From Anaeroplasma bactoclasticum (GTDB taxonomy: Bacteria; Bacillota_I; Bacilli_A; Acholeplasmatales; Anaeroplasmataceae): a stretch of DNA of 34,782 bases. The position numbers and the translations under genes were made by a program. The stretch lies in the NCBI RefSeq assembly GCF_003550015.1, contig NZ_QXEV01000018.1:1-34782 (forward strand), read 5' to 3'. A model generated the notes under the pieces. That model worked only from the letters and a program-made list of their open reading frames with translations, did not search any database and had not been told where the DNA came from. How positions within the stretch are numbered: position 1 is the first letter of the stretch; each line of letters starts with the position of its first letter. Below are positions 3,510 through 31,913 of this stretch, piece by piece.

Positions 3510-3528
3510 GCGAGTCAAATTGACTCGC
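3510..3528 (-). terminator. Intrinsic terminator of jetABC-sepF
   Basis: On the minus strand GCGAGTCAATTTGACTCGC forms an 8-bp stem with a tight loop, followed by TATTTTTTAT. It begins 8 bases after the sepF stop codon. Confidence 0.85.
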
Positions 3529-3535
3529 ATATCTT

Positions 3536-3892
3536 TTAGTTTTCTTTTGGTAAGCCATCTACAAATTCTTTTAAAGAGCCATCAAGGAATTCTTCCTTTC
3601 TAGCATATAAGAATGTAGATTCATTAATTCTTACAGCTCTTCCATCAAGTGCCGCTGCAGCGCCTTGGAAGAATGCCATATATTTATCTGCTTGTTGTAA
3701 ATTCATACCATCGAAATTTAAAACTAGAGGACTTCCATTTTTTAAAGAATCTAATAGTTCCTTTGCGTGAGTATCATCATAAGTCATTCGCTCCATAATG
3801 ATTCTATCGGAAGCTTTACCAAAGTTATTTTCATTTAGATCTAAATCCATATCCTCATATGGATCTTTTTTCTTTTTAAAGAATAAACCCAT
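3536..3892 (-). CDS. sepF: SepF-like cell division protein
   Basis: SepF anchors FtsZ filaments to the membrane and shapes the septum in Gram-positive bacteria. This copy has 118 residues against about 150 in Bacillus, with a shorter linker. The N-terminus MGLFFKKKKDPYEDMD fits the short membrane-binding helix. Residues 30-108 form the SepF core: IMERMTYDDTHAKELLDSLK, then LVLNFDGMNLQQADKYMAFF, AAAALDGRAVRINESTFLYA. The gene is fourth and last in the jet operon. Its ATG overlaps the jetC TAA by one base (TAATG), so translation is probably coupled. SepF is normally encoded with the ylm genes near ftsZ; a place behind an SMC-like gene is unusual. Family assignment is firm; a functional tie to JetC is inference. 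Confidence 0.85.
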   Translation of the reverse strand: MGLFFKKKKDPYEDMDLDLNENNFGKASDRIIMERMTYDDTHAKELLDSLKNGSPLVLNFDGMNLQQADKYMAFFQGAAAALDGRAVRINESTFLYARKEEFLDGSLKEFVDGLPKEN

Positions 3893-6800
3893 TAGCGTAA
3901 TGCACCTTCCTTATTTGTCATTGGTAAAACCTTAGCCTTAGTACCCTGACGTACCATGATTAATGTAGTATCTGCATAATCCTGTAAGATATCCATTCTC
4001 TGTGGAGGGCAGGCAATAATTACCTGTAGTGGCATAGAGTTAATGAAGCTCATCATGGCTCTCATACGGTTACCATCCATCTTATCGAATACCTCGTCAA
4101 ACATTACAACACCAATAGGATCTCCACCAGAGAAGCCTGTCTTTGTATAAACTCGTACGAAGGACGCAATAATTGCTACATAGAATGGAACCTGAGTCTC
4201 ACCACCGGACTTTTCCTTGAATACCTTAGAATATGTCATGGAATCACCATCTTGGTTAATGATTCTGATATCATAATCCATGTATGTACGGTAATCGGTA
4301 AACTTATTCATAGCACCATTAGAGTTAATTTCATCTTGGGATAGGGATTCGAATAATTCACGAATCTGTTCATCATATTTATTTTGGAAATCATATGTGA
4401 ATAGACCTTGATTTAAATCAACTAAATCGGAAGTAACCATATCATAGAACTGAGCATATTCACTAGATCTTGGGAAGATGAATTCATAAGAATCATTACC
4501 AAATCTAATGTTCTTTAATGTCTCATTAATCTTACCAATTTCTTGTTCTGCAGTTAAGATATTATTTCTTAATTTAGCAATGAAGTCTTCCTTAAATACA
4601 ACTTCGGCAGATTCTCTTGCAGAACGAACCTTAGTTTCATAAGTGATTAATTCACTCTTTTCAAGCTTATTTAATTCTGCCATAAACTTATCTACTTCAG
4701 CTAAACCAATAGTTAAAGTGGAATTATACTTATTAACATAATTAAACTGCTTTGCAACTAAGTTATCTACTAATGTAGAATAAGAGCCTTCCTCAGTTTC
4801 ATATTTTTCTTTATATAAAGCTAAAGCCTGCTTGAAGGATTGACCTTGAACGATGGTTTCATATTCTGCCTTAGCACGAGATTCAAATGTTACATTATCT
4901 CCAGCTAAAGTCTTAAGCTCACCTGTTAATTTTTCAAGTTCAGCATTCTTTTGGTTTACTGTTTCAAGTAATGCATTGATTCTTGTACCAATAGAACCAA
5001 TTTCCATAGAATAATCCATTTTCTTCTTTTCGATATTCTTAATGGATTGCTGTACCTTTTCATAATCATCCTGAAGCTCAGATGGAGTAGCATTCTTGCT
5101 TCTCTTTGCCTGACGAGTTAAATCCTCTAAGGCAGCCTGTTCCTTTACAAGCTCTAAAGCCTTATCTAAGTCCTCTAACAATGGACGAATATCAATTTGG
5201 CTTAATAATTCAATTTCCTTAGAAACTCTTTCTACCTCAGAATTAACCTCAGTATATTTTGCCTTAGCCTCTTCAGCCTTTTCAGCCCAAATGGAGGATG
5301 CCTTTGCAGCTGCATTCTTACCCATAAATGGCTTATCTACATTTGGATTTAAGTCTGTAACTGTATATCCAGAATATAATAAGTGATCATTTGTAATAGA
5401 TGTAGAATACTTTTCAAGCTCCATAGGGTCATCGCACATGATAACACTACCACATGTATAATTGATATAAGCTCTTGCATCCTGGTTATCGGATTCAATA
5501 ATAGATGCTAGGGAGTTCTTTTCAAATGTTTTGAACTTTTGAATCTGCTTTGTATTAACTAAACCGATACCATATAAATGATATTTGTTTTTAATTCTAG
5601 AATAAATTTGTAATGCCTGGTCATAATATCTAGGCTCTACAATCATCATGAATCTACGATTACGCAAGAAGATTTCTACTGTATCTGCCCACTTTGGATC
5701 TGTAATTTCACAAAGCTCTGCAAAGATATGTACATTGATATCATAATTATAGATTCTCTTTAATCCTTCTTGAATTTCTTGTCTAATTTGAACAAGCTGA
5801 GGATTATAATTCATCTTATTCTGCTTTAAATCTCTTAAAGCAACAGAAATCTGATTGATTTCTTGAATAATTTGTTCTAATTGACCATCTAAGCTACCAA
5901 GTCTTTGGTTCTTCTTAGAAATTAAAGCCTGCATACGAGAATTTAAATCACGAAGTCTAAGCTTAGTATCTTCTACTGCATTCATATTAATTAAAGATAA
6001 ATTAATACCAGCAGCTTCTGTATAAAGCTTTTCATCAGAAAGCTTTCTTAAGGCATTTACAATATCTTTGAAGTTAGCACTTCTTTTTAAGAAGCCCTGC
6101 TTATTTGCTTCTAAGGATGCAATATTTGCCTGAGTCTTTAAGATTTCTCTATTTGTATACTCTTCAGCTTTAAATGTATCATCCGATGCAAGTAGGTTAT
6201 AAAGCTCTCTTGCACGATCCTGTAATGCAATATTTTCTTGATCTAAATCCTGTAATTCCTTTGTCTTACGGATTCTTAATTGCTCTTCCTTATCGATTAA
6301 TCTTTTTGCATCATTGATATCATTTCTTACAGCTTCAACATCAAATAAATGCATTAAGTATTCAATATAAGCCTTATTCTCTTGAATCTTTAAGATTTCC
6401 TGATATACAAAATCAATTTCATGTAAATCAGCAATCTTACCCTGGATAAGCTTTAAAGTGATTTCAAGCTCCTTATAAGCACGAATAGATTCTTGAATTG
6501 CAGTAACATCAATTTCCTTTTCTTCTAGGATATTCTGATAAATGAATTCCTTAACATCGGCAATTGGCTTAAATGCTAAAGCCTTAGGAATTAATCTATA
6601 GAAATCCTCATTGATGGAACCAAAGGCATTTCTAAATCCTCTTTTTGCTTCCTTCTTTGTTAAATAATATTCAAATAATGGATTATGCTTACGGAATTCT
6701 ACTGTACCATAAATGCTCTTTTCTTCACTAATGAACATAGAGTCATTAATTGGTTCATCACTTCTATAAAAAATTGTCTTAACTGGAGTTAAATCACCGA

Positions 6801-7137
6801 ATGCATCAATAACTGCACCAACAGTAAAATCTAGACCAGTCTTTTCATCATGGAACTGAAGTGCGATATGACCTGAAATGTCACCATTTCTTAGGTATTC
6901 TCTATCATCCATACCAAGCTTACATTTTACATAACCTCTTAAATCTCTTTTACCCTTTTCATTTGCGGCAAGGTTGAATGCTGTATCACCAGCTGTAAGT
7001 ACATAAGTAATGGCATCCATGATAGTAGACTTACCAGAGGCATTTGGACCTGTAAGTAATGTATTACCATTTAATTCAATTGTTTCATTGGCAAGATAAT
7101 GCCAGTTGATTAATCTAACCTTTACAAGCTTCTTCAT
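3892..7137 (-). CDS. jetC: JetC/MksB-like SMC-family ATPase
   Basis: SMC-like DNA-loop-extruding ATPase of 1081 residues, the JetC subunit of Wadjet (related to MksB and MukB). The head opens with KLVKVRLINWHYL and a Walker A GPNASGKST near residues 30-38. Long charged coiled-coil arms follow, broken by a globular middle region (about 470-600). The C-terminal head carries the ABC signature KSGGETQVPFY near 976 and Walker B GVVMFDEVFDKMD near 1009. I start at the ATG at 7137 (MKKLVKV), 9 bases after GAGGAGG; the upstream start at 7161 lies within jetB and adds 8 residues. The start lies one base past the jetB stop. SbcC is excluded by the DUF4194 and JetA neighbours. Confidence 0.88.
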   Translation of the reverse strand: MKKLVKVRLINWHYLANETIELNGNTLLTGPNASGKSTIMDAITYVLTAGDTAFNLAANEKGKRDLRGYVKCKLGMDDREYLRNGDISGHIALQFHDEKTGLDFTVGAVIDAFGDLTPVKTIFYRSDEPINDSMFISEEKSIYGTVEFRKHNPLFEYYLTKKEAKRGFRNAFGSINEDFYRLIPKALAFKPIADVKEFIYQNILEEKEIDVTAIQESIRAYKELEITLKLIQGKIADLHEIDFVYQEILKIQENKAYIEYLMHLFDVEAVRNDINDAKRLIDKEEQLRIRKTKELQDLDQENIALQDRARELYNLLASDDTFKAEEYTNREILKTQANIASLEANKQGFLKRSANFKDIVNALRKLSDEKLYTEAAGINLSLINMNAVEDTKLRLRDLNSRMQALISKKNQRLGSLDGQLEQIIQEINQISVALRDLKQNKMNYNPQLVQIRQEIQEGLKRIYNYDINVHIFAELCEITDPKWADTVEIFLRNRRFMMIVEPRYYDQALQIYSRIKNKYHLYGIGLVNTKQIQKFKTFEKNSLASIIESDNQDARAYINYTCGSVIMCDDPMELEKYSTSITNDHLLYSGYTVTDLNPNVDKPFMGKNAAAKASSIWAEKAEEAKAKYTEVNSEVERVSKEIELLSQIDIRPLLEDLDKALELVKEQAALEDLTRQAKRSKNATPSELQDDYEKVQQSIKNIEKKKMDYSMEIGSIGTRINALLETVNQKNAELEKLTGELKTLAGDNVTFESRAKAEYETIVQGQSFKQALALYKEKYETEEGSYSTLVDNLVAKQFNYVNKYNSTLTIGLAEVDKFMAELNKLEKSELITYETKVRSARESAEVVFKEDFIAKLRNNILTAEQEIGKINETLKNIRFGNDSYEFIFPRSSEYAQFYDMVTSDLVDLNQGLFTYDFQNKYDEQIRELFESLSQDEINSNGAMNKFTDYRTYMDYDIRIINQDGDSMTYSKVFKEKSGGETQVPFYVAIIASFVRVYTKTGFSGGDPIGVVMFDEVFDKMDGNRMRAMMSFINSMPLQVIIACPPQRMDILQDYADTTLIMVRQGTKAKVLPMTNKEGALR

Positions 7138-7138
7138 C

Positions 7139-7723
7139 TTACTTTGCCTCCTCGCTAGCATTAATCTTATTGATTGTATTAAATACCTCTGTTACATCCT
7201 CTGTCTTAATAGCCATTAAGATTGTAGGAAGAATAACTAACTTACAAGAGGATGTTGTAACATCTCCTGTAATCTCAATAAGGTTATAACGTCTAAGTAG
7301 ACGTAAGGAGGAAACTAAATCCGTTTTATTTAGCTTCTTCTTAATTTCTAAATAATCATATTTTTCATGAATGTCAGAAACTGCACAAACGATATTTTCA
7401 TTTAAGGAAGTATCCTTCATCTTTTCATGATATAAAAGTCTTAAAATTAATAGAACTAATGTTTCATCTCTTCTAAGCTTTAATGTGTTTGTAGCACTTG
7501 CACCAGATAGCATTACAGAGCCTGTAGGCATATCTAATGTAATTTCGTAACCTAAAATTTGGAAGAATTCATCAAATACTTCTTTATAGCTCATTAAGAA
7601 GTAATATGCTTCCTTATTATCCTTTTTATCTCTTGACAAGAATGTACATGCCAAAAGCTTATTCGCAGTATCTTTAAATTGACCTTGCTGCGTAACGGTC
7701 ATCTTTTCTAATGCGTCTAACAT
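7139..7723 (-). CDS. jetB: JetB-like DUF4194 protein (MukE/MksE-type subunit)
   Basis: A 194-residue protein of the DUF4194 type, which in Wadjet is JetB, the equivalent of the MukE/MksE kite subunits that bridge the kleisin and the ATPase heads. It looks like tandem winged helices: helical N-terminus, then LRRDETLVLLILRLLYHEK, a second block EIKKKLNKTDLVSSLRLLRRYNLIEITG near residues 125-155, and a beta-rich end. Its ATG follows an AGGAG site that overlaps the jetA TAG stop, with 10 bases between the genes, and its stop abuts the jetC start. The three jet genes are one tightly packed unit. Confidence 0.82.
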   Translation of the reverse strand: MLDALEKMTVTQQGQFKDTANKLLACTFLSRDKKDNKEAYYFLMSYKEVFDEFFQILGYEITLDMPTGSVMLSGASATNTLKLRRDETLVLLILRLLYHEKMKDTSLNENIVCAVSDIHEKYDYLEIKKKLNKTDLVSSLRLLRRYNLIEITGDVTTSSCKLVILPTILMAIKTEDVTEVFNTINKINASEEAK

Positions 7724-7733
7724 ACTTTCTCTC

Positions 7734-9155
7734 CTACACTAATGTTTTCTTAATTACGAAATCTTTTATAATGAACTTTTCGGTTTCAACCTTTGAATCA
7801 TCAATGATTTCAACCACATAGGATTTTTCTACAGCTAAAATGATAGAATATACAACCATCATAAATTCTGTTCTAGTACAATCATATCTTAAAATCTTAG
7901 AAGCTTGGAATACTCCGTCCACTAAGTTTGCATCTAAGAAGTTTGCAACCTCTTCTTCGTTATATGCTGTACGGAATTGAGATAAGAATTCTGGATTTAA
8001 ATCAAAATCAAATCCAACATCATCTAATACCTGGTTTGCATTTCTTTGATATCCTCCTCTTGGAGTATATAAAGAGCTTTCCATATTATAGACTTTAATC
8101 TGAGGTAAATTATATAAACCATCAAGAATTCTCATTGCACGGTCTTGCTTACCCTTCTTATTTTGATCCTTAACAAATTTCAAAATAGAATTTAGCTTAC
8201 CAATAATATTATCTTCTTCAGATAATAAGAACTTAATCTTACCAATTGTAGAATTGATGTAATTTCTATTCTTATTATCGATTTCAACAATGAAATCCTC
8301 AATCGCATTAAATGCATCAATTACCTCATCAATATTACGAATCGCTTTATTAATAGCTTCCTCTTCCGTTTTAGTAACTGCTAAATAGTTTTTAGAAATA
8401 GCCTTAACGATTGTTTCATTGCTTTGGAATTCCTCTAAACGAGTTACAATATTTAATCTATAACGGTCAATATTATCAGAAACCTTAAGCTTAACATAAG
8501 ATTTATCATAAACCTCATTTTTATACTTAATTAATCTTTCCATTAAATTCTTAATTTCCGTATTATCAATTACAGATTGAATATATTCCTTCATTCTTGC
8601 ATCAAGTCTTCTGATTGCACGAATCAATTGTCTTGTATTGGAAAATACTAATGAGAAGGTTAATGCATAATCAATATTATCCGTTTGATTTAAAAGGGTA
8701 TAAATGGAATAAATATATCCTTGATACTGTGATGGATCAACATAATCCTCCGGAAGTTCACTATCCGCTAAATCAATTGCTGGATAAGCATTTAATAGTG
8801 CCTCACATATCGTAATTGCCACATCCGAGAAATTTAACACCTCTACATAGTCATTCGTGACATCGACATATATCCAGCCACATTCTTCCATTCTACGTAA
8901 AATATAATTTGCAAGCTCACGCTTACTTTGAGGATTAGCTTCTTCATCTTCTTCATCTTCAATGTTGTATAAATAATTTGAATTAGAATCTAAGAAATAA
9001 GTTAAGTCGTCTACAACAATTTTCTTCTCGATTCCTAAAATTGTACCTGTTTCGTAAACCTTAAAAACCTGAAGGATACTAGCTAAGTAAATTCTTTTAT
9101 TTTTCGAAGATAATAACGAAAAGAAATTATCCTGGACCATATCAAATAAATCCAT
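7734..9155 (-). CDS. jetA: JetA-like protein (MukF/MksF-type kleisin subunit)
   Basis: First gene of the operon, 473 residues, matching the JetA (DUF5716-like) subunit of Wadjet in length, gene order and character. It begins with a winged-helix-like region (NKRIYLASILQVFKVYETG, later RRMEECGWIYVDVTNDYVEVLNFSD). A long helical middle follows (about 130-340), then a C-terminal domain (about 380-473) that would contact an ATPase head. I start at the ATG at 9155, 8 bases after AAGGGAG; the TTG at 9161 is too close to that site. It has its own promoter and follows the ychF terminator. Recognition rests mainly on synteny with DUF4194 and the SMC-like gene. Confidence 0.8.
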   Translation of the reverse strand: MDLFDMVQDNFFSLLSSKNKRIYLASILQVFKVYETGTILGIEKKIVVDDLTYFLDSNSNYLYNIEDEEDEEANPQSKRELANYILRRMEECGWIYVDVTNDYVEVLNFSDVAITICEALLNAYPAIDLADSELPEDYVDPSQYQGYIYSIYTLLNQTDNIDYALTFSLVFSNTRQLIRAIRRLDARMKEYIQSVIDNTEIKNLMERLIKYKNEVYDKSYVKLKVSDNIDRYRLNIVTRLEEFQSNETIVKAISKNYLAVTKTEEEAINKAIRNIDEVIDAFNAIEDFIVEIDNKNRNYINSTIGKIKFLLSEEDNIIGKLNSILKFVKDQNKKGKQDRAMRILDGLYNLPQIKVYNMESSLYTPRGGYQRNANQVLDDVGFDFDLNPEFLSQFRTAYNEEEVANFLDANLVDGVFQASKILRYDCTRTEFMMVVYSIILAVEKSYVVEIIDDSKVETEKFIIKDFVIKKTLV

Positions 9156-9201
9156 TCCCAATTCTCCCTTCTTTTTCTACCTATATTATAAATATAATAT
9201 A

Positions 9202-9230
9202 ATTATATAAAAAACACAGTAATTATGCAA
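9202..9230 (-). promoter_or_regulatory. Promoter of jetABC-sepF
   Basis: On the minus strand TTGCAT (9225-9230) and a perfect TATAAT (9202-9207) are separated by 17 bp. The likely start is near 9195, giving a leader of about 40 bases before jetA. It is the best -35/-10 pair between the ychF terminator and jetA. Confidence 0.72.
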
Positions 9231-9324
9231 TAAAATCGCTTACAATTTTTGCTTAAAATGATACTTTTTTTACCAAAAATTTCAAAATAATTTACTTACC
9301 TAGTTTTCAATATTTTTTCGTATT

Positions 9325-9377
9325 GTTTCGAAATTTTCGAAACATATTTTAATCCTTTGGATTAAGTCATTTTGACT
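9325..9377. repeat. Three consecutive perfect inverted repeats upstream of jetA
   Basis: Within 53 bases lie a 19-base inverted repeat with 9-bp arms (GTTTCGAAATTTTCGAAAC, 9325-9343), a 15-base one (TAATCCTTTGGATTA, 9350-9364) and a 13-base one (AGTCATTTTGACT, 9365-9377). They lie 95-150 bp upstream of the jetA -35 in the otherwise non-coding stretch 9162-9466. None has a T tract, so they do not look like terminators. They could bind a regulator or the complex itself. Confidence 0.55.
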
Positions 9378-9466
9378 AATAGATTTAATGTTTTTTAATG
9401 TTTTGTAAAATAATATTGAATATTTGATAAAACAATATAGAATAATAGACTTCAAATAACAAAAAA

Positions 9467-9492
9467 AGACGAGAATTTTTACATTCTCGTCT
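9467..9492 (-). terminator. Intrinsic terminator of ppa-ychF
   Basis: On the minus strand AGACGAGAAT pairs with ATTCTCGTCT around a short loop and is followed by a T7 run. It lies about 20 bases after the ychF stop. Confidence 0.9.
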
Positions 9493-9513: not shown

Positions 9514-10614
9514 TTATACATTAAATTTAAATAGCATTACATCGCCATCTTGTACTACGTAATCCTTACCCTCTTGACGCACAAGACCTGCTTCTTTTGC
9601 TTTTAGCATAGAACCACACTTAACTAAATCGTTATATGCTACAGTTTCTGCTCTAATGAATCCACGCTGGAAATCACTATGGATAATACCTGCACATTCA
9701 GGTGCAAGCATTCCCTTACGGAATGTCCAAGCTCTACATTCATCAGGACCTGTTGTAAAATATGTTGCATAACCTAAAAGATCATAGGTTGCACGTACAA
9801 GCTTATTTAAGCCTGGTTCAGTTACACCATAATCTGCTAGGAATTCATTTTTTTCATCATCTTCTAGTACTGCAAGCTCAGATTCAATTTCAGCTGAAAT
9901 TGCAATGCATTTAGCACCTGTCTTATCTGCATAAGCCTTAAGTTTTAAATAATCTGGGTCAGAATCAGGATCTGCAATGAAATCTTCCTTAATATTTCCA
10001 ACATACATAAATGGTTTTGCAGTTAATAGCTGATATCCAGATATATACTTTTCTTCTTGTTCGGATAAAGATAAAGTACGAACTGGCTCTTCAGCCATTA
10101 AGCATGCTTCAATTCTTTTTAAGAATGCAAATTCAGCTGGTGCATCATCTACTTTAGATTGTGCCTTTTTTTCTAATTTAGCTGCTCTTTTTTGAATAGA
10201 ATCTAAATCAGCTAAAATAAGCTCTAAATTGATAATTTCAGCATCTCTAACTGGATCTACTCCACCCTCTACATGAGTTACATTAGAATCCTGGAAGCAT
10301 CTAACTACTTCCAAAATTGCATCACAGTTACGAATGTTACCTAAAAACTGGTTACCTAAGCCTTCACCCTTAGATGCACCTTTAACTAATCCTGCAATAT
10401 CTGTAAATTCACAAACTGCTGGAGTAGTCTTCTTTGGATTATACATACCTGATAAAACATATAATCTTTCATCTGGTACATTTACCATACCAACATTAGG
10501 CTCAATAGTTGCGAAAGGATAATTTGCAGCTAATGCGCCTGCCTTTGTAATTGCATTAAATAATGTAGACTTACCTACGTTAGGTAATCCTACAATTCCT
10601 GCTGTTAAAGCCAT
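9514..10614 (-). CDS. ychF: Redox/translation-associated GTPase (ATPase) YchF
   Basis: Universally conserved Obg-family P-loop protein of 366 residues (OLA1/YchF), which prefers ATP and binds ribosomes. Visible motifs: G1 GLPNVGKST near residues 8-16, FATIEPN near 34, G3 DIAGLVKGASKGEGLGNQFL near 73, a coiled coil around 135-165, and the C-terminal TGS domain (LLGYATYFTTGPDECRAWTFRKG onward). The G4 position reads YVGNIKED, in line with relaxed nucleotide choice in the family. ATG start with an AGGAG site. It follows ppa by 18 bases in one transcript closed by the terminator at 9467. Confidence 0.96.
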   Translation of the reverse strand: MALTAGIVGLPNVGKSTLFNAITKAGALAANYPFATIEPNVGMVNVPDERLYVLSGMYNPKKTTPAVCEFTDIAGLVKGASKGEGLGNQFLGNIRNCDAILEVVRCFQDSNVTHVEGGVDPVRDAEIINLELILADLDSIQKRAAKLEKKAQSKVDDAPAEFAFLKRIEACLMAEEPVRTLSLSEQEEKYISGYQLLTAKPFMYVGNIKEDFIADPDSDPDYLKLKAYADKTGAKCIAISAEIESELAVLEDDEKNEFLADYGVTEPGLNKLVRATYDLLGYATYFTTGPDECRAWTFRKGMLAPECAGIIHSDFQRGFIRAETVAYNDLVKCGSMLKAKEAGLVRQEGKDYVVQDGDVMLFKFNV

Positions 10615-11276: not shown

Positions 11277-12971
11277 TTACTTAACCATATTTACAATTTC
11301 AAGTACTTCTTTACCTAATAAAGCAAGCTTTTCATCAGCTTCTTCATTAGAAGTACCCTTAACACCATAGTAAACCTTTAGCTTTGGTTCTGTTCCTGAT
11401 GGACGAAGTACAAACCACATATTATCATTTAGATAATATTTAATTACATTAGACTGAGGAAGCTTAATTGTAGAATCCTTGTCAGTAACATAATCATAAT
11501 GCATAGACTTATAAACATCATCCTTAGCTAAAATCTTGAAATCCTTCAAGCAAATATTAGATTCACGGAAATAATTCATAATTCTTCCAATCTTTGCAGC
11601 ACCTTCTAGGCCCTTTAAAGAGATATTTGTAATTCCTTCCTTATAATATCCATATTCCTTATAGATTTCTTGTAATGCATCATATAAGTCCATACCCTTT
11701 TCACGGTAGTATGCAGCTGTTTCACAAAGCATTAAAATAGCCTGAATAGAATCCTTATCACGAACACAATCAGATACTAAGCAGCCATAGGATTCCTCAA
11801 ATCCAAATACATAAGTACCACGGTGAGTAGTTTCCATTTCCCTTGCCTTTTCACCGATGAACTTAAATCCTGTTAAAGTAATTTCAGTCTTTAAGCCATA
11901 CTTTTCAGCAATTGCAATAGGAAGTGTTGAAGATACATTTGTAGTGAATAGGTAACCATCAGCAGGTAATGTACCTAATTCTTTTCTTGTCTTACAAATA
12001 TAATCAAATACTAATGCAGCAGTTTGGTTACCTGTGAATAAAATATATTCTCCATTATGCTCAACAGCAATACCTAAACGGTCTGCATCTGGGTCTGTAG
12101 CTAAAACAATCTTAGCGCCAATTTCTTTAGCAAGCTCAATTGCCTCATCATATGCTTCCTTATTTTCTGGGTTTGAAGTCTTAACACCAGAAAAATCTGG
12201 GTCATTTGTCATTTGGCAAGCTAGTGGTACTACATCATAGCCTTCACTTTGTAATACCTGTGGTGCAAATACCTGACCAGTACCATGAAGTGGTGTATAA
12301 ACTAGCTTGAAATCCTTATTTAAATTAGGTCTTAGGATGATCTTCTTTACATCCTTAATATATTTTTCATCAATTTCTTTTCCAATATAATAAATTAATT
12401 CATGATTTAATGAATGCTCAATTGCAAAATAGTCATCGATTTTATTAATTTCAGCGATAACCTCATCTGCCATATGTGGAACTAGCTGGCAGCCTGTTTC
12501 ATCATAAATCTTATATCCATTATATTCCTTTGGATTATGAGATGCAGTAATCATGATACCACCAATACATTTGAAGTTTCTTACTGCATAAGATAATTCT
12601 GGTGTAGGTCTTAAAGATTCAAATAGGAATACTCTAAATCCTAGGCTAGCTAAAACCTCAGCAGAGAATCTTGCGAATTCAACAGACTGATGACGGTTGT
12701 CATGGGCAATTGCAACACCTCTTTGACCTGCGACATTAGACTGCTTAAGTAAATATCTACCAAAGCCTAATGTAGCCTTACCTACGATATAAATATTCAT
12801 ACGATTTGTACCAACGCCTAAAACTCCCCTAAGTCCGCCAGTACCAAAAGCTAAATCTGTAGTGAAAGCTTCTTTTAAAGCATTGTCATCCATAGAATCT
12901 AGCTCTGCCTTTAAAGAAGGCTCTAAATCCTTATAACTCTTCCATAAATTTGCCTTTTCTAAATAATCCAT
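11277..12971 (-). CDS. pgcA: Phosphoglucomutase / phosphomannomutase (alpha-D-phosphohexomutase)
   Basis: Interconverts hexose 1- and 6-phosphates, supplying sugar nucleotides for envelope polymers. The 564 residues match the PgcA-type Gram-positive enzymes. All four signature loops are present: the phosphoserine loop TASHNPKEYNGYK near 140, the metal loop DPDADRLGIAV near 290, the sugar loop GFEESYG near 385, and the phosphate loop RPSGTEPKLKVYY near 530. I start at the ATG at 12971 (MDYLEKANLW), 8 bases after GAGG; the TTG at 13001 has no site. It lies 46 bases behind the UPF0210 gene and is probably transcribed with it. PgcA is the likeliest subtype. Confidence 0.93.
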   Translation of the reverse strand: MDYLEKANLWKSYKDLEPSLKAELDSMDDNALKEAFTTDLAFGTGGLRGVLGVGTNRMNIYIVGKATLGFGRYLLKQSNVAGQRGVAIAHDNRHQSVEFARFSAEVLASLGFRVFLFESLRPTPELSYAVRNFKCIGGIMITASHNPKEYNGYKIYDETGCQLVPHMADEVIAEINKIDDYFAIEHSLNHELIYYIGKEIDEKYIKDVKKIILRPNLNKDFKLVYTPLHGTGQVFAPQVLQSEGYDVVPLACQMTNDPDFSGVKTSNPENKEAYDEAIELAKEIGAKIVLATDPDADRLGIAVEHNGEYILFTGNQTAALVFDYICKTRKELGTLPADGYLFTTNVSSTLPIAIAEKYGLKTEITLTGFKFIGEKAREMETTHRGTYVFGFEESYGCLVSDCVRDKDSIQAILMLCETAAYYREKGMDLYDALQEIYKEYGYYKEGITNISLKGLEGAAKIGRIMNYFRESNICLKDFKILAKDDVYKSMHYDYVTDKDSTIKLPQSNVIKYYLNDNMWFVLRPSGTEPKLKVYYGVKGTSNEEADEKLALLGKEVLEIVNMVK

Positions 12972-16685: not shown

Positions 16686-17651
16686 TTAATTATTTTCTGC
16701 TTTAGTAATAGTAAACGAACTTCTAAATGTATCATTATTACATACATTACTTAAAAGAACATCTATAAAAAAATAACCATTAAAGAATGTCATATAAGGA
16801 TTAAATTCAGTATATTTTATATAATCTTTAGTATCATATTTATCAGATAAAACGGATTTATCTAAATATTCAACTTTTAAATCAGATTTACCTGAATAAT
16901 CTAGTCCAGTAGAAGGACTTATAAGAGGTTCTGTTCTATATTTAAACAATCCATCTTCAGCAATCATAACTACATCTCCATCCGTATAATAAATATAACT
17001 AAAATCATCATTGGTATATGCAGTTCCACTATCATATTCAGAGCTATAAGAATCAAATGTTAAAATACTCTGATTCCTATATTTTTCTATATCCTCTTGA
17101 TGTGTTGTAACTATTTTTACGGTTCCAGAGGCAACCTCTTTTTCAGTTTTCCTAAAAAGATAATTATATAATGTTATTTCTGTTGCTACAGTATATGTAT
17201 TTTCTCCTGAAACAAAAGATTTTGATTCAACTTTACTATATGAAGTAACCACATCATCCTTCATTGAATAAGCATAATTATAAAAATAATGACTATTATT
17301 CTTATAGTCTAGTATAATCTTCGATTCATCGAATTTTTTTTGATTATTAGCAGAACTAGTAGTCGAAGCTTCAATAAAACTATCATCAACAGAAACCGAT
17401 TTTCTTGTCACAACAATAGATGAATACTTGTTAAAGAAATCATTTTCTGCGTTTGCACTAATTTCTAAACATGCCTTGTTAAACTCATCGCTTTCTTTTG
17501 AATTATTCAAATTATACTCATTTTTAGCTTTAGAATCCTTTTCAGGAATTACAATTTCAAAATCATGTGACAAATAATCATAATTAGAACAAGATGCTAA
17601 GCCCAAAGCTAAAATAGGTAATGATGCTAAATATATTAATCTCTTCTTCAT
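16686..17651 (-). CDS. Lipoprotein, third of a tandem paralogous set
   Basis: A 321-residue lipoprotein of unknown function. The signal peptide MKKRLIYLASLPILALGLASC ends in the lipobox L-A-S-C, so Cys21 would be lipidated and the protein held on the outer face of the membrane. The mature start YLSHDFEIVIPEKDSKAKNEYNL is nearly shared with both upstream copies, as are SYSKVESKSFVSGENTYTVATEITL and VKIVTTHQEDIE. The middle and the C-terminus (ITKAENN) differ most. Tyr, Asp and Ser are frequent, as in secreted beta-rich proteins. It lies 23 bases behind the second copy, with a GGAGAGAG-type site, and ends near the convergent terminator at 16645. Confidence 0.82.
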   Translation of the reverse strand: MKKRLIYLASLPILALGLASCSNYDYLSHDFEIVIPEKDSKAKNEYNLNNSKESDEFNKACLEISANAENDFFNKYSSIVVTRKSVSVDDSFIEASTTSSANNQKKFDESKIILDYKNNSHYFYNYAYSMKDDVVTSYSKVESKSFVSGENTYTVATEITLYNYLFRKTEKEVASGTVKIVTTHQEDIEKYRNQSILTFDSYSSEYDSGTAYTNDDFSYIYYTDGDVVMIAEDGLFKYRTEPLISPSTGLDYSGKSDLKVEYLDKSVLSDKYDTKDYIKYTEFNPYMTFFNGYFFIDVLLSNVCNNDTFRSSFTITKAENN

Positions 17652-17674
17652 TTTCTTCTCTCTCCTCTTATATT

Positions 17675-18604
17675 TTATTCAGTAATAGTAAACCAGCTTC
17701 TAAATAATTCGCTATTAGATAGCATAATAGACAAATCATACAAGTCATCTTTAAAAGACCAAGAAGAATAATAACTACCAAAAACCTCTCTTTCATCATA
17801 TTGGATATAATTATTTGTATCATACTTGTCATCTAAAATGGAATTTTCTAAATATTCAATTTTATTTTTGTTTGTATCCTTTTCCTTTGAAGACATATAA
17901 TTATATTCCACATACATATAAGTTAACAGTCCATTTTCCCCGATTGCAATTTCATTAATCTTATTCGATGAATGCTCATAATACATATAAGTAAATTCAT
18001 CATTAGCATATAAGGTGCCACTAGTCCTATTTCCATAACTAAAATATGGATTAACTTGCGTTTTTTTATGAGCTTCAATATTTTCTTTATGAGTTGTAAC
18101 AATTTTAACAAACCCAGAAGCTTTACTATTATTCTCACCAAAACTAAAATTATTTAAAGTAATTTCAGTCCCTACAGTAAATGTATTCTCCTCAGATACA
18201 AATATTTTTGATTCAACCCTACTATAAGAAGAAACTTCTCCATTTTCCATATTATAAGAATAGTCATAAGCATATATGCTATTTTTTTCAAAATCCCATA
18301 TACGTTTAACATCCCAGCCCTCTTCAAGTATATCAGCTACATAAATAGAACCTTTATGCGTTATTATAACGGATTTATATTTACTATATAGATAATCTTG
18401 AGCCTGGAGATACACATTCTTCGAACCATTTAGTGCCTGTTCTTGTTCTTCAGAATTTTCTAAATTATATTCATTGGTTGCTTTTGAATCCTTTTCTGGG
18501 ATTACAATATCAAAATCATGGGACATATAATTTGTTCCAGAGCATGATGCTAAACCAATTGCAAAAATAGGTAATGCTGCTAAATATATTATTCTCTTTT
18601 TCAT
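17675..18604 (-). CDS. Lipoprotein, second of a tandem paralogous set
   Basis: A 309-residue paralogue of both neighbours. Signal peptide MKKRIIYLAALPIFAIGLASC with lipobox L-A-S-C; the mature protein begins SGTNYMSHDFDIVIPEKDSK. The block SYSRVESKIFVSEENTFTVGTEITLNN and the motif VKIVTTHKENIE are shared across the set, and it ends in SELFRSWFTITE like the first copy. A 43-base stretch spanning its stop codon and spacer (18606-18648 against 17653-17695) is identical at both junctions, which points to recent unequal duplication or gene conversion. Function unknown. Confidence 0.82.
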   Translation of the reverse strand: MKKRIIYLAALPIFAIGLASCSGTNYMSHDFDIVIPEKDSKATNEYNLENSEEQEQALNGSKNVYLQAQDYLYSKYKSVIITHKGSIYVADILEEGWDVKRIWDFEKNSIYAYDYSYNMENGEVSSYSRVESKIFVSEENTFTVGTEITLNNFSFGENNSKASGFVKIVTTHKENIEAHKKTQVNPYFSYGNRTSGTLYANDEFTYMYYEHSSNKINEIAIGENGLLTYMYVEYNYMSSKEKDTNKNKIEYLENSILDDKYDTNNYIQYDEREVFGSYYSSWSFKDDLYDLSIMLSNSELFRSWFTITE

Positions 18605-18627
18605 ATTCTTCTCTCTCCTCTTATATT

Positions 18628-19587
18628 TTATTCAGTAATAGTAAACCAACTTCTGAATTCTTGACTTTCTCCTAAAAGGGTAGTTAAAGAATAACTGCCT
18701 TTAAAAAATGTATTACCAGCACCTGAAGGTTGAAATAATATTGATTCATCATATTCAATATAATCTTTTGTATCATATTTATTTTCTAAAATAGAGTTTT
18801 CAAAATATTCCATTTTTTCATTTCTGGTATATTTTTCTGTATATCCTTGACCAAAATCTTTATACTCTTCTAAAGAAAAATAAGTCCATAATCCATTTTC
18901 ACCAATAGTGGTATAAGTGAAATCACCATTTGTATCTACATGATATACATAACTGAAATCTTCATTTGAAGATAATGTTCCCTTATGAGAAACAAAAGAT
19001 GAATTAAGGTAATAAAAGTAAGTAGTATCCATATGATTCTTTCTATATACTTCAATATCTTCTTTATGTGTTGTAACAATTTTTACATTGCCAGATGCCT
19101 TACTTGGGTGCTTACGTGTACCAAACCTATAATTATTTAAAGTTATTTCTGTTGAAGTGGTATATGTATTTTCATCAATTACAAATGACTTCGATTCAAC
19201 TTTACTATAAGAAGAAACTTCTCCATTTTCCATCTCATAATAGTAACCATAACAATAAACGCTATTATTTGTAAAATCTATTATTCTTTTCGTATCTTTT
19301 CCACTTAGAAGAGTATCATTATCATAATTATATTCTTTTTCAGTGAAAATAGTTGATGAATACTTACTAGAAAAATTATTATAGGCATTCAAAGCTTGTC
19401 CATAAACTAATCCATAAGATGCATCATAATCTTCTTGATTAGATAAATCATATTCATTGGTTGCTTTTGAATCCTTTTCTGGGATTACAACATCAAAATC
19501 ATGGGACATATAATCAGTTCCAGAACATGATGCTAAGCTTAAAGCTACTATTGGTAAAGATACTGCATAAATTAATTTCTTTTTCAT
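18628..19587 (-). CDS. Lipoprotein, first of a tandem paralogous set
   Basis: A 319-residue lipoprotein that leads the set. The signal peptide MKKKLIYAVSLPIVALSLASC ends in L-A-S-C. The mature start (GTDYMSHDFDVVIPEKDSKA) and the SYSKVESKSFV and VKIVTTHKEDIE blocks match the other copies; residues 55-85 and 195-260 vary. No enzyme motif is seen. A promoter (TTGATT-17-TAATAT) and an AGGAGGAGAG site precede it, and the three genes have 23-base spacers, so one transcript probably makes all three. The pattern of conserved frame and variable insert suggests surface diversification or binding of related ligands; that is inference. Confidence 0.82.
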   Translation of the reverse strand: MKKKLIYAVSLPIVALSLASCSGTDYMSHDFDVVIPEKDSKATNEYDLSNQEDYDASYGLVYGQALNAYNNFSSKYSSTIFTEKEYNYDNDTLLSGKDTKRIIDFTNNSVYCYGYYYEMENGEVSSYSKVESKSFVIDENTYTTSTEITLNNYRFGTRKHPSKASGNVKIVTTHKEDIEVYRKNHMDTTYFYYLNSSFVSHKGTLSSNEDFSYVYHVDTNGDFTYTTIGENGLWTYFSLEEYKDFGQGYTEKYTRNEKMEYFENSILENKYDTKDYIEYDESILFQPSGAGNTFFKGSYSLTTLLGESQEFRSWFTITE

Positions 19588-22441: not shown

Positions 22442-23059
22442 ATCGAGTAGAGTAGGAAAATAATTATTTCTAACTATCTTCCATCCCCTCTCACACCACC
22501 ACATCGTGCCGTTCGGCAATGGGCGGTTTGAAACTTGCATATTCTTTCTTTATTGCTAACAAAGTATCATTGAATTCATATTACACTTTACTGCCTTTTC
22601 ATATCATATACGTTTCTATTACTTGGGCTCATCATACATATCCAAGAGATTTGTTTGCTTCTTTATATGCAGTTTCATTCAGTCCTTCGGCATTTCTACC
22701 TACTATGACCTCTGCTGACTCCTTGTGACAAACTTTTTAACCAAGTTTTCTATAGTTGTTTTAAAACGTCTAGGCTTCACTTGTTCACAAGGCCTCACGG
22801 GATAAGCCATAAATCTTTCCTAGTTTACCCACTTGATTTACCGATTAGGGTTACGATTGCCTTTTGGACTTTGTTGTGTCTTGCCAACTTATCCGCCTAA
22901 TGGGCCTCATTATCAAGTTTCTGTTCGTTGGGCCACTATTTCGCTATTACTTCTTTTCACGCTCCATCACTGGTTTACGCTTTGCAAGTCGCTATCAAGT
23001 TCGTCGGCAACTACGCCTCTTGGGACTTTCACCCTAGATTTATAACATGCCCGTCATAC
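22442..23059 (-). mobile_element. Group II intron with the reverse transcriptase deleted, 618 bp
   Basis: Read on the minus strand, it opens with GTATGACGGGCATG and CTAGGGTGAAAGTCCC, then carries a series of conserved intron-RNA blocks: GACGAACAGAAAC-like, GATAAGTTGGCAAGAC, CAAAGTCC, GAGGCC and AGTCAGCAGAGGTCATAGTA. The 3' end holds a domain V-like hairpin (GCCGAACGGC apex), GGTGGTGTGAGAGG, and a domain VI stem ending CTACTCGAT. Between these, only a 19-codon stub of the encoded protein remains. The 5' exon is the hpf intrinsic terminator, the target preferred by bacterial class C introns. Borders are set by comparison with general group II ends and may be off by a base or two. The open frames within it are not genes. 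Confidence 0.85.
22619..22678 (-). pseudogene. Remnant N-terminus of the intron-encoded reverse transcriptase
   Basis: At the place where class C-like introns start their protein, directly after the conserved CCGAAGGACTGA, an ATG opens a 19-codon frame, MKLHIKKQTNLLD-MYDEPK. The part QTNLLD resembles the start of many group II intron proteins. The frame then stops; no RT, maturase or endonuclease sequence follows. An internal deletion is the simplest reading. Confidence 0.55.
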
Positions 23060-30269: not shown

Positions 30270-30286
30270 ATAAAATCATAATTTAT

Positions 30287-30371
30287 TGCCATCATTCAAG
30301 CTTTAGCACCTTTCCTTTAAGGGAGGTTGCTTGGTAGTCATGGAGCTTGTCTCTCGTACCATCTTTATGAC
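30287..30371 (-). promoter_or_regulatory. SAM riboswitch (S-box type, lacking P4)
   Basis: The RNA begins at the predicted transcription start, where GUCAU pairs with AUGGC to close P1. P2 is GGUA/UACC around a kink-turn-like ACGA/AUGAC. The hairpin above it carries CAAG, which can pair with CUUG after GGUGCUAAAG (the S-box pseudoknot). AAGCAACC and AAGGUGCUAA are the conserved P3 strands. The P4 hairpin of standard S-boxes is absent, so it resembles SAM-I/IV variants. When SAM binds, P1 holds GAUGGC and lets the terminator at 30251 form. It controls priA, fmt, the HD-GYP-like gene, TSCPD and metK. Confidence 0.85.
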
Positions 30372-30377
30372 ATAATC

Positions 30378-31796: not shown

Positions 31797-31807
31797 ATAC
31801 ATAATAT

Positions 31808-31899
31808 ACAGCGGACGCGCAGAATTACCGCCACTAAAAGTGTTCGTCCATACCCAACATCCCGTGATATGGCACTTAACGCAATTTCTGCTACTCTGT
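31808..31899 (-). promoter_or_regulatory. Tetrahydrofolate (THF) riboswitch
   Basis: A 92-base element with the THF aptamer landmarks in order: ACAGAGUAG (P1 5' strand and junction), UGCGUUAAGUGCC, GGGAUGUUGGG, GGACGAA, GGCGGU, and CGUCCGCUGU closing P1 (ACAG/CUGU). It lies between a good promoter (predicted start about 8 bases upstream) and folT, the usual target of this class in Bacillota. Confidence 0.93.
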
Positions 31900-31913
31900 T
31901 CTTTACGAAATAA

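Follow-up and report, generated by a model that had tools for sequence, protein, structure and literature searches.

A compact operon of four genes, jetA, jetB, jetC and sepF, spans positions 3536-9161 on the minus strand of contig NZ_QXEV01000018.1 of Anaeroplasma bactoclasticum, whose whole analysed stretch of 34,782 nucleotides is referred to here as the window. The named relatives of the source genome are Anaeroplasma and other Anaeroplasmataceae, a family of small bacteria of the gut in the order Acholeplasmatales. The first three genes encode the kleisin, KITE and ATPase subunits of a structural maintenance of chromosomes (SMC) complex, assigned by PADLOC to Wadjet type I, and the fourth encodes the division protein SepF (Table 1). 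Sequence comparison makes it probable that jetABC specifies a type-I-Wadjet-like SMC motor without a nuclease, acting as the chromosome condensin of Anaeroplasmataceae in place of a lost Smc-ScpAB; in origin, such a condensin is best regarded as a derivative or a sister of Wadjet.

The initial annotation had placed a jetABC-sepF operon at this locus, and its genes and coordinates proved right, all four genes lying on the minus strand. The matches to the Pfam models for JetA, DUF4194, MksE, SbcC_Walker_B and SepF all exceed their cut-offs. The stop codon of jetC and the start codon of sepF overlap by one base (TAATG), and the conserved start of the protein alignments places the likely true start codons of jetA and jetC at ATG triplets near 9155 and 7137, respectively, both inside the listed open reading frames (ORFs). 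Since terminator-like hairpins follow both sepF and the upstream gene ychF, jetA-jetB-jetC-sepF look like one transcription unit. Of the separate promoter and terminator proposed initially, the terminator hairpin was found, whereas the promoter is placed only putatively in the stretch upstream of jetA. Promoter-like matches were not enriched over shuffled sequences (23 observed vs 33.6 expected).

Table 1. Genes and signals of the jetABC-sepF operon and its upstream border in the window
Feature	Position	Strand	Description
jetA	7734-9161	minus	Kleisin (MukF/MksF-like), 475 aa; Pfam PF18982, E 9.5e-66; PADLOC JetA1
jetB	7139-7723	minus	KITE subunit (MukE/MksE-like), 194 aa; Pfam DUF4194, E 7.6e-30; MksE, E 9.4e-8
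jetC	3892-7161	minus	SMC ATPase; Pfam SbcC_Walker_B, E 2.4e-22; PADLOC JetC1, E 1.9e-299
sepF	3536-3892	minus	FtsZ-anchoring division protein, 118 aa; PF04472, E 1.3e-10, 41.8 bits vs cut-off 27
Intrinsic-terminator-like hairpin	3510-3528	minus	Closes the operon after sepF; -18 kcal/mol, z -5.98
Terminator-like hairpin of ychF	9467-9492	minus	Separates upstream ychF from the operon; -16 kcal/mol, z -4.65
Intergenic stretch	9162-9466	minus	Putative place of the operon promoter; best -35/-10-like pair at 9285-9258, within noise
ychF	9514-10614	minus	GTPase gene upstream of jetA; marker of the ancestral ychF-ylmE-sepF-ileS neighbourhood

In the JetC ATPase, earlier described as intact, Walker A reads GPNASGKST, the signature motif SGGE and Walker B FDEVFDKMD. 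These motifs are invariant or nearly so among relatives, and of 74 full-length relatives 73 have the whole set. A sequence search against the PDB matched JetC to solved JetC chains (E 1e-12 to 3e-10) and SepF to 3zih (E 1.2e-4); JetA and JetB gave no meaningful matches by sequence alone. The AlphaFold model of JetB (mean predicted confidence, pLDDT, 89.8) matches MukE and JetB with a Foldseek probability of 1.00 and template modelling (TM) scores of 0.53-0.65, and the weaker model of JetA best matches MukF and JetA chains with a probability of about 1 and low TM-scores. The alignment in which a possible loss of an N-terminal JetD-contact motif from JetB was sought is highly variable. Measured against the nearest relative, which is 94% identical, the ratio of non-synonymous to synonymous substitution rates (dN/dS) amounts to 0.05 for jetA, 0.03 for jetB, 0.07 for jetC and 0.23 for sepF, and selection on the operon is strongly purifying, SepF evolving faster than JetABC. 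SepF is encoded by a single copy in the source genome and has a short, basic and hydrophobic N-terminus (MGLFFKKKK...), in which the kind of residues is conserved. FtsZ is present in the source genome and in the genus, and SepF therefore has its usual partner.

The nuclease JetD, which defines a Wadjet, is missing from this system. The initial annotation had noted that no jetD flanks the operon, and this holds beyond the window: the whole source genome (2.2 Mb in 58 contigs, 99% complete) contains no match to JetD_C, near jetABC or elsewhere, and jetD lies beside jetC in none of 77 named loci. In a survey of 150 genomes of Acholeplasmatales, 55 of them Anaeroplasmataceae, JetD was found in 7 and was absent from 143. 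Five of the seven carriers belong to Anaeroplasmataceae. Four of these (G003, G007, G008 and G029) possess an intact second, divergent jetABC with jetD immediately after it; the search can therefore be regarded as sensitive, as it detected jetD right behind these second copies of JetC. In the fifth (G037, locus L085 on contig C80, 947-2212), jetD has no adjacent jetABC and represents an orphan nuclease or a remnant. The source genome itself contains a second Wadjet without jetD (locus L042 on contig C36, 3170-5793), in which jetA2 and jetB2 are intact and jetC2 is truncated to 214 aa; this system is visibly decaying. Loss of JetD through an assembly gap was considered and rejected, as the partial JetC on contig C36 sits mid-contig and is a truncated gene of this decayed Wadjet. 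Defence copies that can be dispensed with thus coexist with one copy of JetABC that looks indispensable.

The canonical SMC complex is missing as well. Across the order, Smc above the curated cut-off and ScpA were each found in 0 of 150 genomes, with models that do detect both proteins in control genomes, and JetC was present in 125 of 150 genomes, including 55 of 55 Anaeroplasmataceae. Matches to Smc below the cut-off were not accepted as genuine, since they resemble coiled-coil proteins, RecN-like proteins or JetC; the window JetC itself reaches 37.9 bits against a cut-off of 567.35. Given that neither Smc nor ScpA was recovered, no SMC complex other than JetABC can be recognised here. ParB above its cut-off was detected in 0 of 27 genomes of the window's genus, and several sister genera and families retain it. 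Acholeplasmataceae (L063-L066; e.g. G073) carry their own JetD-less jetABC and lack Smc-ScpAB. The genus of 0.5-0.9 Mb genomes in the order, which we infer to be the phytoplasmas, includes many members with a JetD-less jetABC, and another JetD-less family of the class corresponds to Izemoplasmatales. Most genomes of the family f5 of the same order (e.g. G058, G061, G066, G068) have ParB, FtsZ and SepF and are without JetABC, Smc and ScpA; f5 is a possible condensin-free lineage.

A similar pattern emerged from a class-wide sample of 237 genomes, for which the Fisher tests ignore relatedness. JetA and ScpA occurred together in 10 genomes, JetA alone in 54, ScpA alone in 103 and neither in 70, which amounts to a tendency of the two to avoid each other (Fisher p 8e-10). 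JetD above its cut-off was present in 7 of the 10 JetA genomes with ScpA vs 3 of the 54 without it (Fisher p 2e-5). A profile built from JetC itself recovered nearly the same genomes as the JetA search, so that the 70 genomes with neither protein are probably real.

In the JetC tree the window sequence falls within a fully supported JetD-less clade comprising Anaeroplasmataceae, two more families of the order, Izemoplasmatales and one further family, and within Anaeroplasmataceae the clade follows genera. The JetC of Acholeplasmataceae, JetD-less too, is placed elsewhere. A single common JetC for the whole order was rejected (AU, approximately unbiased, test under LG+G4, p about 1e-102), and the jetABC of Acholeplasmataceae would have an origin separate from that of the window clade. 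The JetD-bearing copies of Anaeroplasmataceae are separate and divergent, and JetD-bearing copies fall near the window JetC in the tree; JetD-less JetC also stands beside JetD-bearing copies from other families of the class and, in some genomes, occurs along with ScpA. On the unrooted 41-row tree the JetD state must have changed at least 4 times, in directions that depend on where the root is placed. Within the order, JetD-less copies seem to have been recruited on two or more occasions.

The second feature of the operon is its linkage to sepF. In every one of the 54 Anaeroplasmataceae genomes with enough contig, sepF lies directly after jetC in the same orientation. All 50 named loci of the family with sufficient contig show this adjacency too, usually with the one-base overlap; it is thus not a peculiarity of one strain. 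The adjacency was not seen in other families of the order, where JetD-less jetABC occurs with sepF elsewhere, and JetD-less operons without sepF are found in many related families. In Acholeplasmataceae the order is of the ancestral type, ychF-ylmE-sepF-ileS (L040/L041). Among Anaeroplasmataceae loci, 29 of 50 have ychF upstream of jetA; ychF directly adjoins the operon in 20 of 45 and ileS in 11 of 47, and jetABC and sepF are never separated. In the basal genera (L075, L077-L080) ileS follows sepF directly, or past ylmH or another gene. The four-gene order is retained down to about 50% JetC identity, with other neighbours shuffled. The simplest account of this arrangement would be an insertion of jetABC between ychF and sepF, replacing ylmE, in the ancestor of Anaeroplasmataceae. 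The initial view that SepF had taken the fourth position, that of JetD, was abandoned: sepF retains its ylm/ileS neighbourhood and is older than the jetABC insertion beside it, and JetD-less operons elsewhere do without sepF. In one further genome (G023, contig C18), ftsZ occupies 11546-12481, by coordinates directly upstream of jetA, and these coordinates suggest ftsZ, jetABC and sepF in one run.

The initial annotation had interpreted the operon as a domesticated condensin or as a link between segregation and division. The condensin reading fits, because JetD-less JetABC is universal in Anaeroplasmataceae, whose genomes are without Smc or ScpA. By analogy with the solved JetABC and MukBEF, two JetC dimers, joined by the JetA kleisin and accompanied by JetB KITE subunits, would entrap DNA, and ATP hydrolysis would drive loop extrusion. 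As JetD is absent, extruded DNA would never be cut; fully extruded or stalled DNA would stay intact, and the activity would be limited to compacting and resolving sister chromosomes. We infer this loop extrusion and chromosomal role, as well as any contact with SepF. Several observations weigh against the condensin reading. The class tolerates the loss of both JetA and ScpA (about 70 of 237 genomes), which means that a condensin is not strictly required, and in the sister family f5, which has ParB, most genomes also lack JetABC; JetABC therefore need not be an obligatory replacement. Genomes of the families f12 and f17 carry a JetD-less jetABC yet keep ScpA, so the nuclease and Smc-ScpAB are not necessarily lost together. 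Moreover, a divergent or non-Toprim effector may be encoded elsewhere in the genome. The class genomes with neither complex weaken the word "replacement", not the standing of JetABC as the sole recognisable SMC complex. It is improbable that JetABC still serves in plasmid defence, compacting or silencing plasmids by itself or relying on JetD or another nuclease in trans: the assignment to Wadjet type I and the JetD found elsewhere in five Anaeroplasmataceae genomes speak for it, but neither the source genome nor most of the order has JetD, the JetD-bearing operons of the family are separate copies, and universal presence without Smc-ScpAB is unlike patchy defence islands. A decaying, functionless Wadjet remnant, such as the second Wadjet of the source genome might suggest, is barely credible; it is contradicted by the dN/dS of 0.03-0.07, the nearly always complete motif set and the occurrence of jetABC in all Anaeroplasmataceae genomes.

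As regards division, the proposed link rests on conserved gene linkage, from which co-expression of jetABC with sepF is likely; a shared transcript would tie the supply of the condensin to that of SepF. The retention of jetABC-sepF points to selection for co-expression, or to sepF being dependent on the jet promoter, and is no proof of binding. The latter possibility, that jetABC landed by chance upstream of sepF, which came to rely on the jet promoter while the proteins act independently, is compatible with the condensin role and has close to an even chance of being correct. It agrees with the ancestral ileS side kept by sepF in basal genera; to our knowledge there is no biochemical link between JetABC and SepF, and the one-base overlaps would make later separation costly. 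The four-gene order, kept over such divergence while neighbours shuffle, speaks against it. An extension of the condensin reading, in which SepF, as the membrane-bound partner of FtsZ, physically brings JetABC to the septum or places it there and makes chromosome clearing and ring assembly one unit, is possible but distinctly less likely. It would account for an adjacency without exception although ychF and ileS are often displaced, and it has a precedent in Corynebacterium glutamicum, where MksB localisation needs the polar scaffold DivIVA, with which MksF and MksG interact (PMC10123090). However, the adjacency arose by insertion into the ychF-ylmE-sepF-ileS cluster, sister lineages with JetD-less jetABC have sepF elsewhere, and SepF evolves faster than JetABC. 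The strongest version, in which a former plasmid-restriction motor serves the genus as its sole, ParB-independent chromosome condensin and has a physical tie to the divisome via SepF, is a little more doubtful still. The initial observation is confirmed and its interpretation partly supported: the condensin stands as the probable function, and the division link extends as far as the gene linkage.

Other features of the window concern different genes. Two matches to group II intron D1-D4 RNA, on the minus strand at 22682-22976, fall in the interval from secA to a gene that likely encodes a ribosome hibernation factor; a large intron ORF was not seen at these matches. A SAM (S-adenosylmethionine) riboswitch at 30273-30373 precedes a run of priA and fmt, which is an unusual target for it. 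A THF (tetrahydrofolate) riboswitch at 31807-31900 precedes a likely ECF transporter gene. Three tandem paralogous genes for lipoprotein-like products of about 310-320 aa occupy 16686-19587.

A condensin originating from a nuclease-less motor of the Wadjet type has been proposed for Pseudomonas aeruginosa MksBEF and for MukBEF (PMC10586767). With regard to mollicutes, a proteome study listed an unspecified "Smc-like protein" that Acholeplasma laidlawii has as well (PMC3139596). In the literature, which was covered in part, no report was found that describes a JetD-less JetABC serving as SMC complex in Acholeplasmatales, Izemoplasmatales or mollicutes, and novelty is unproven; with the same partial coverage, none was found of an SMC-sepF operon, of SepF with MksB or of a phytoplasma with Wadjet. 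The results make the proposed origin of MukBEF and MksBEF from defence machines that lost their nuclease testable within one related group, as a single family holds both JetD-bearing and JetD-less copies and some JetD-less relatives can be cultivated (Acholeplasma laidlawii, Izemoplasma). Acholeplasmas and many phytoplasmas gain a candidate condensin, where a phytoplasma review had called the partitioning repertoire sparse and the smc annotation doubtful (PMC3322544). A conserved condensin-division operon is also indicated, and a direct linkage of condensin to division via SepF, if true, would be previously undescribed.

Compared with known systems, the window set shares the sequence and order of JetA, JetB and JetC with Wadjet type I (JetABCD/MksBEFG), from which it differs in having no JetD in operon or genome, in being universal rather than sporadic and in occurring in genomes without Smc-ScpAB. 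It is not a Wadjet, because a search for the nuclease that defines such a system found none. Nor is it Smc-ScpAB, as its JetC scores far below the Smc cut-off and ScpA is absent. The basal genera of Anaeroplasmataceae recall the ylm division cluster (ylmE-sepF-ylmH-ileS), with sepF and ileS, and ylmH in one genus, adjoining, except that jetABC takes the place of ylmE beside sepF. The closest known systems are MukBEF and P. aeruginosa MksBEF, condensins that likewise consist of a kleisin-KITE-SMC set without a nuclease, with action on the chromosome being presumed for the window set. P. aeruginosa possesses SMC in addition to MksBEF, whereas the window set is the sole recognisable SMC complex, has Wadjet type I sequence and is operon-linked to sepF. 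Being the sole SMC complex of a lineage without Smc-ScpAB is a feature of MukBEF, itself a divergent SMC complex, which in one lineage took over from Smc-ScpAB (PMC10586767), and the predicted folds of JetA and JetB match MukF and MukE. In contrast to MukBEF, the SMC protein of the window belongs to the JetC1 family, not to MukB, and the system would represent a case of its own, in Bacilli that are reduced and in part lack a cell wall.
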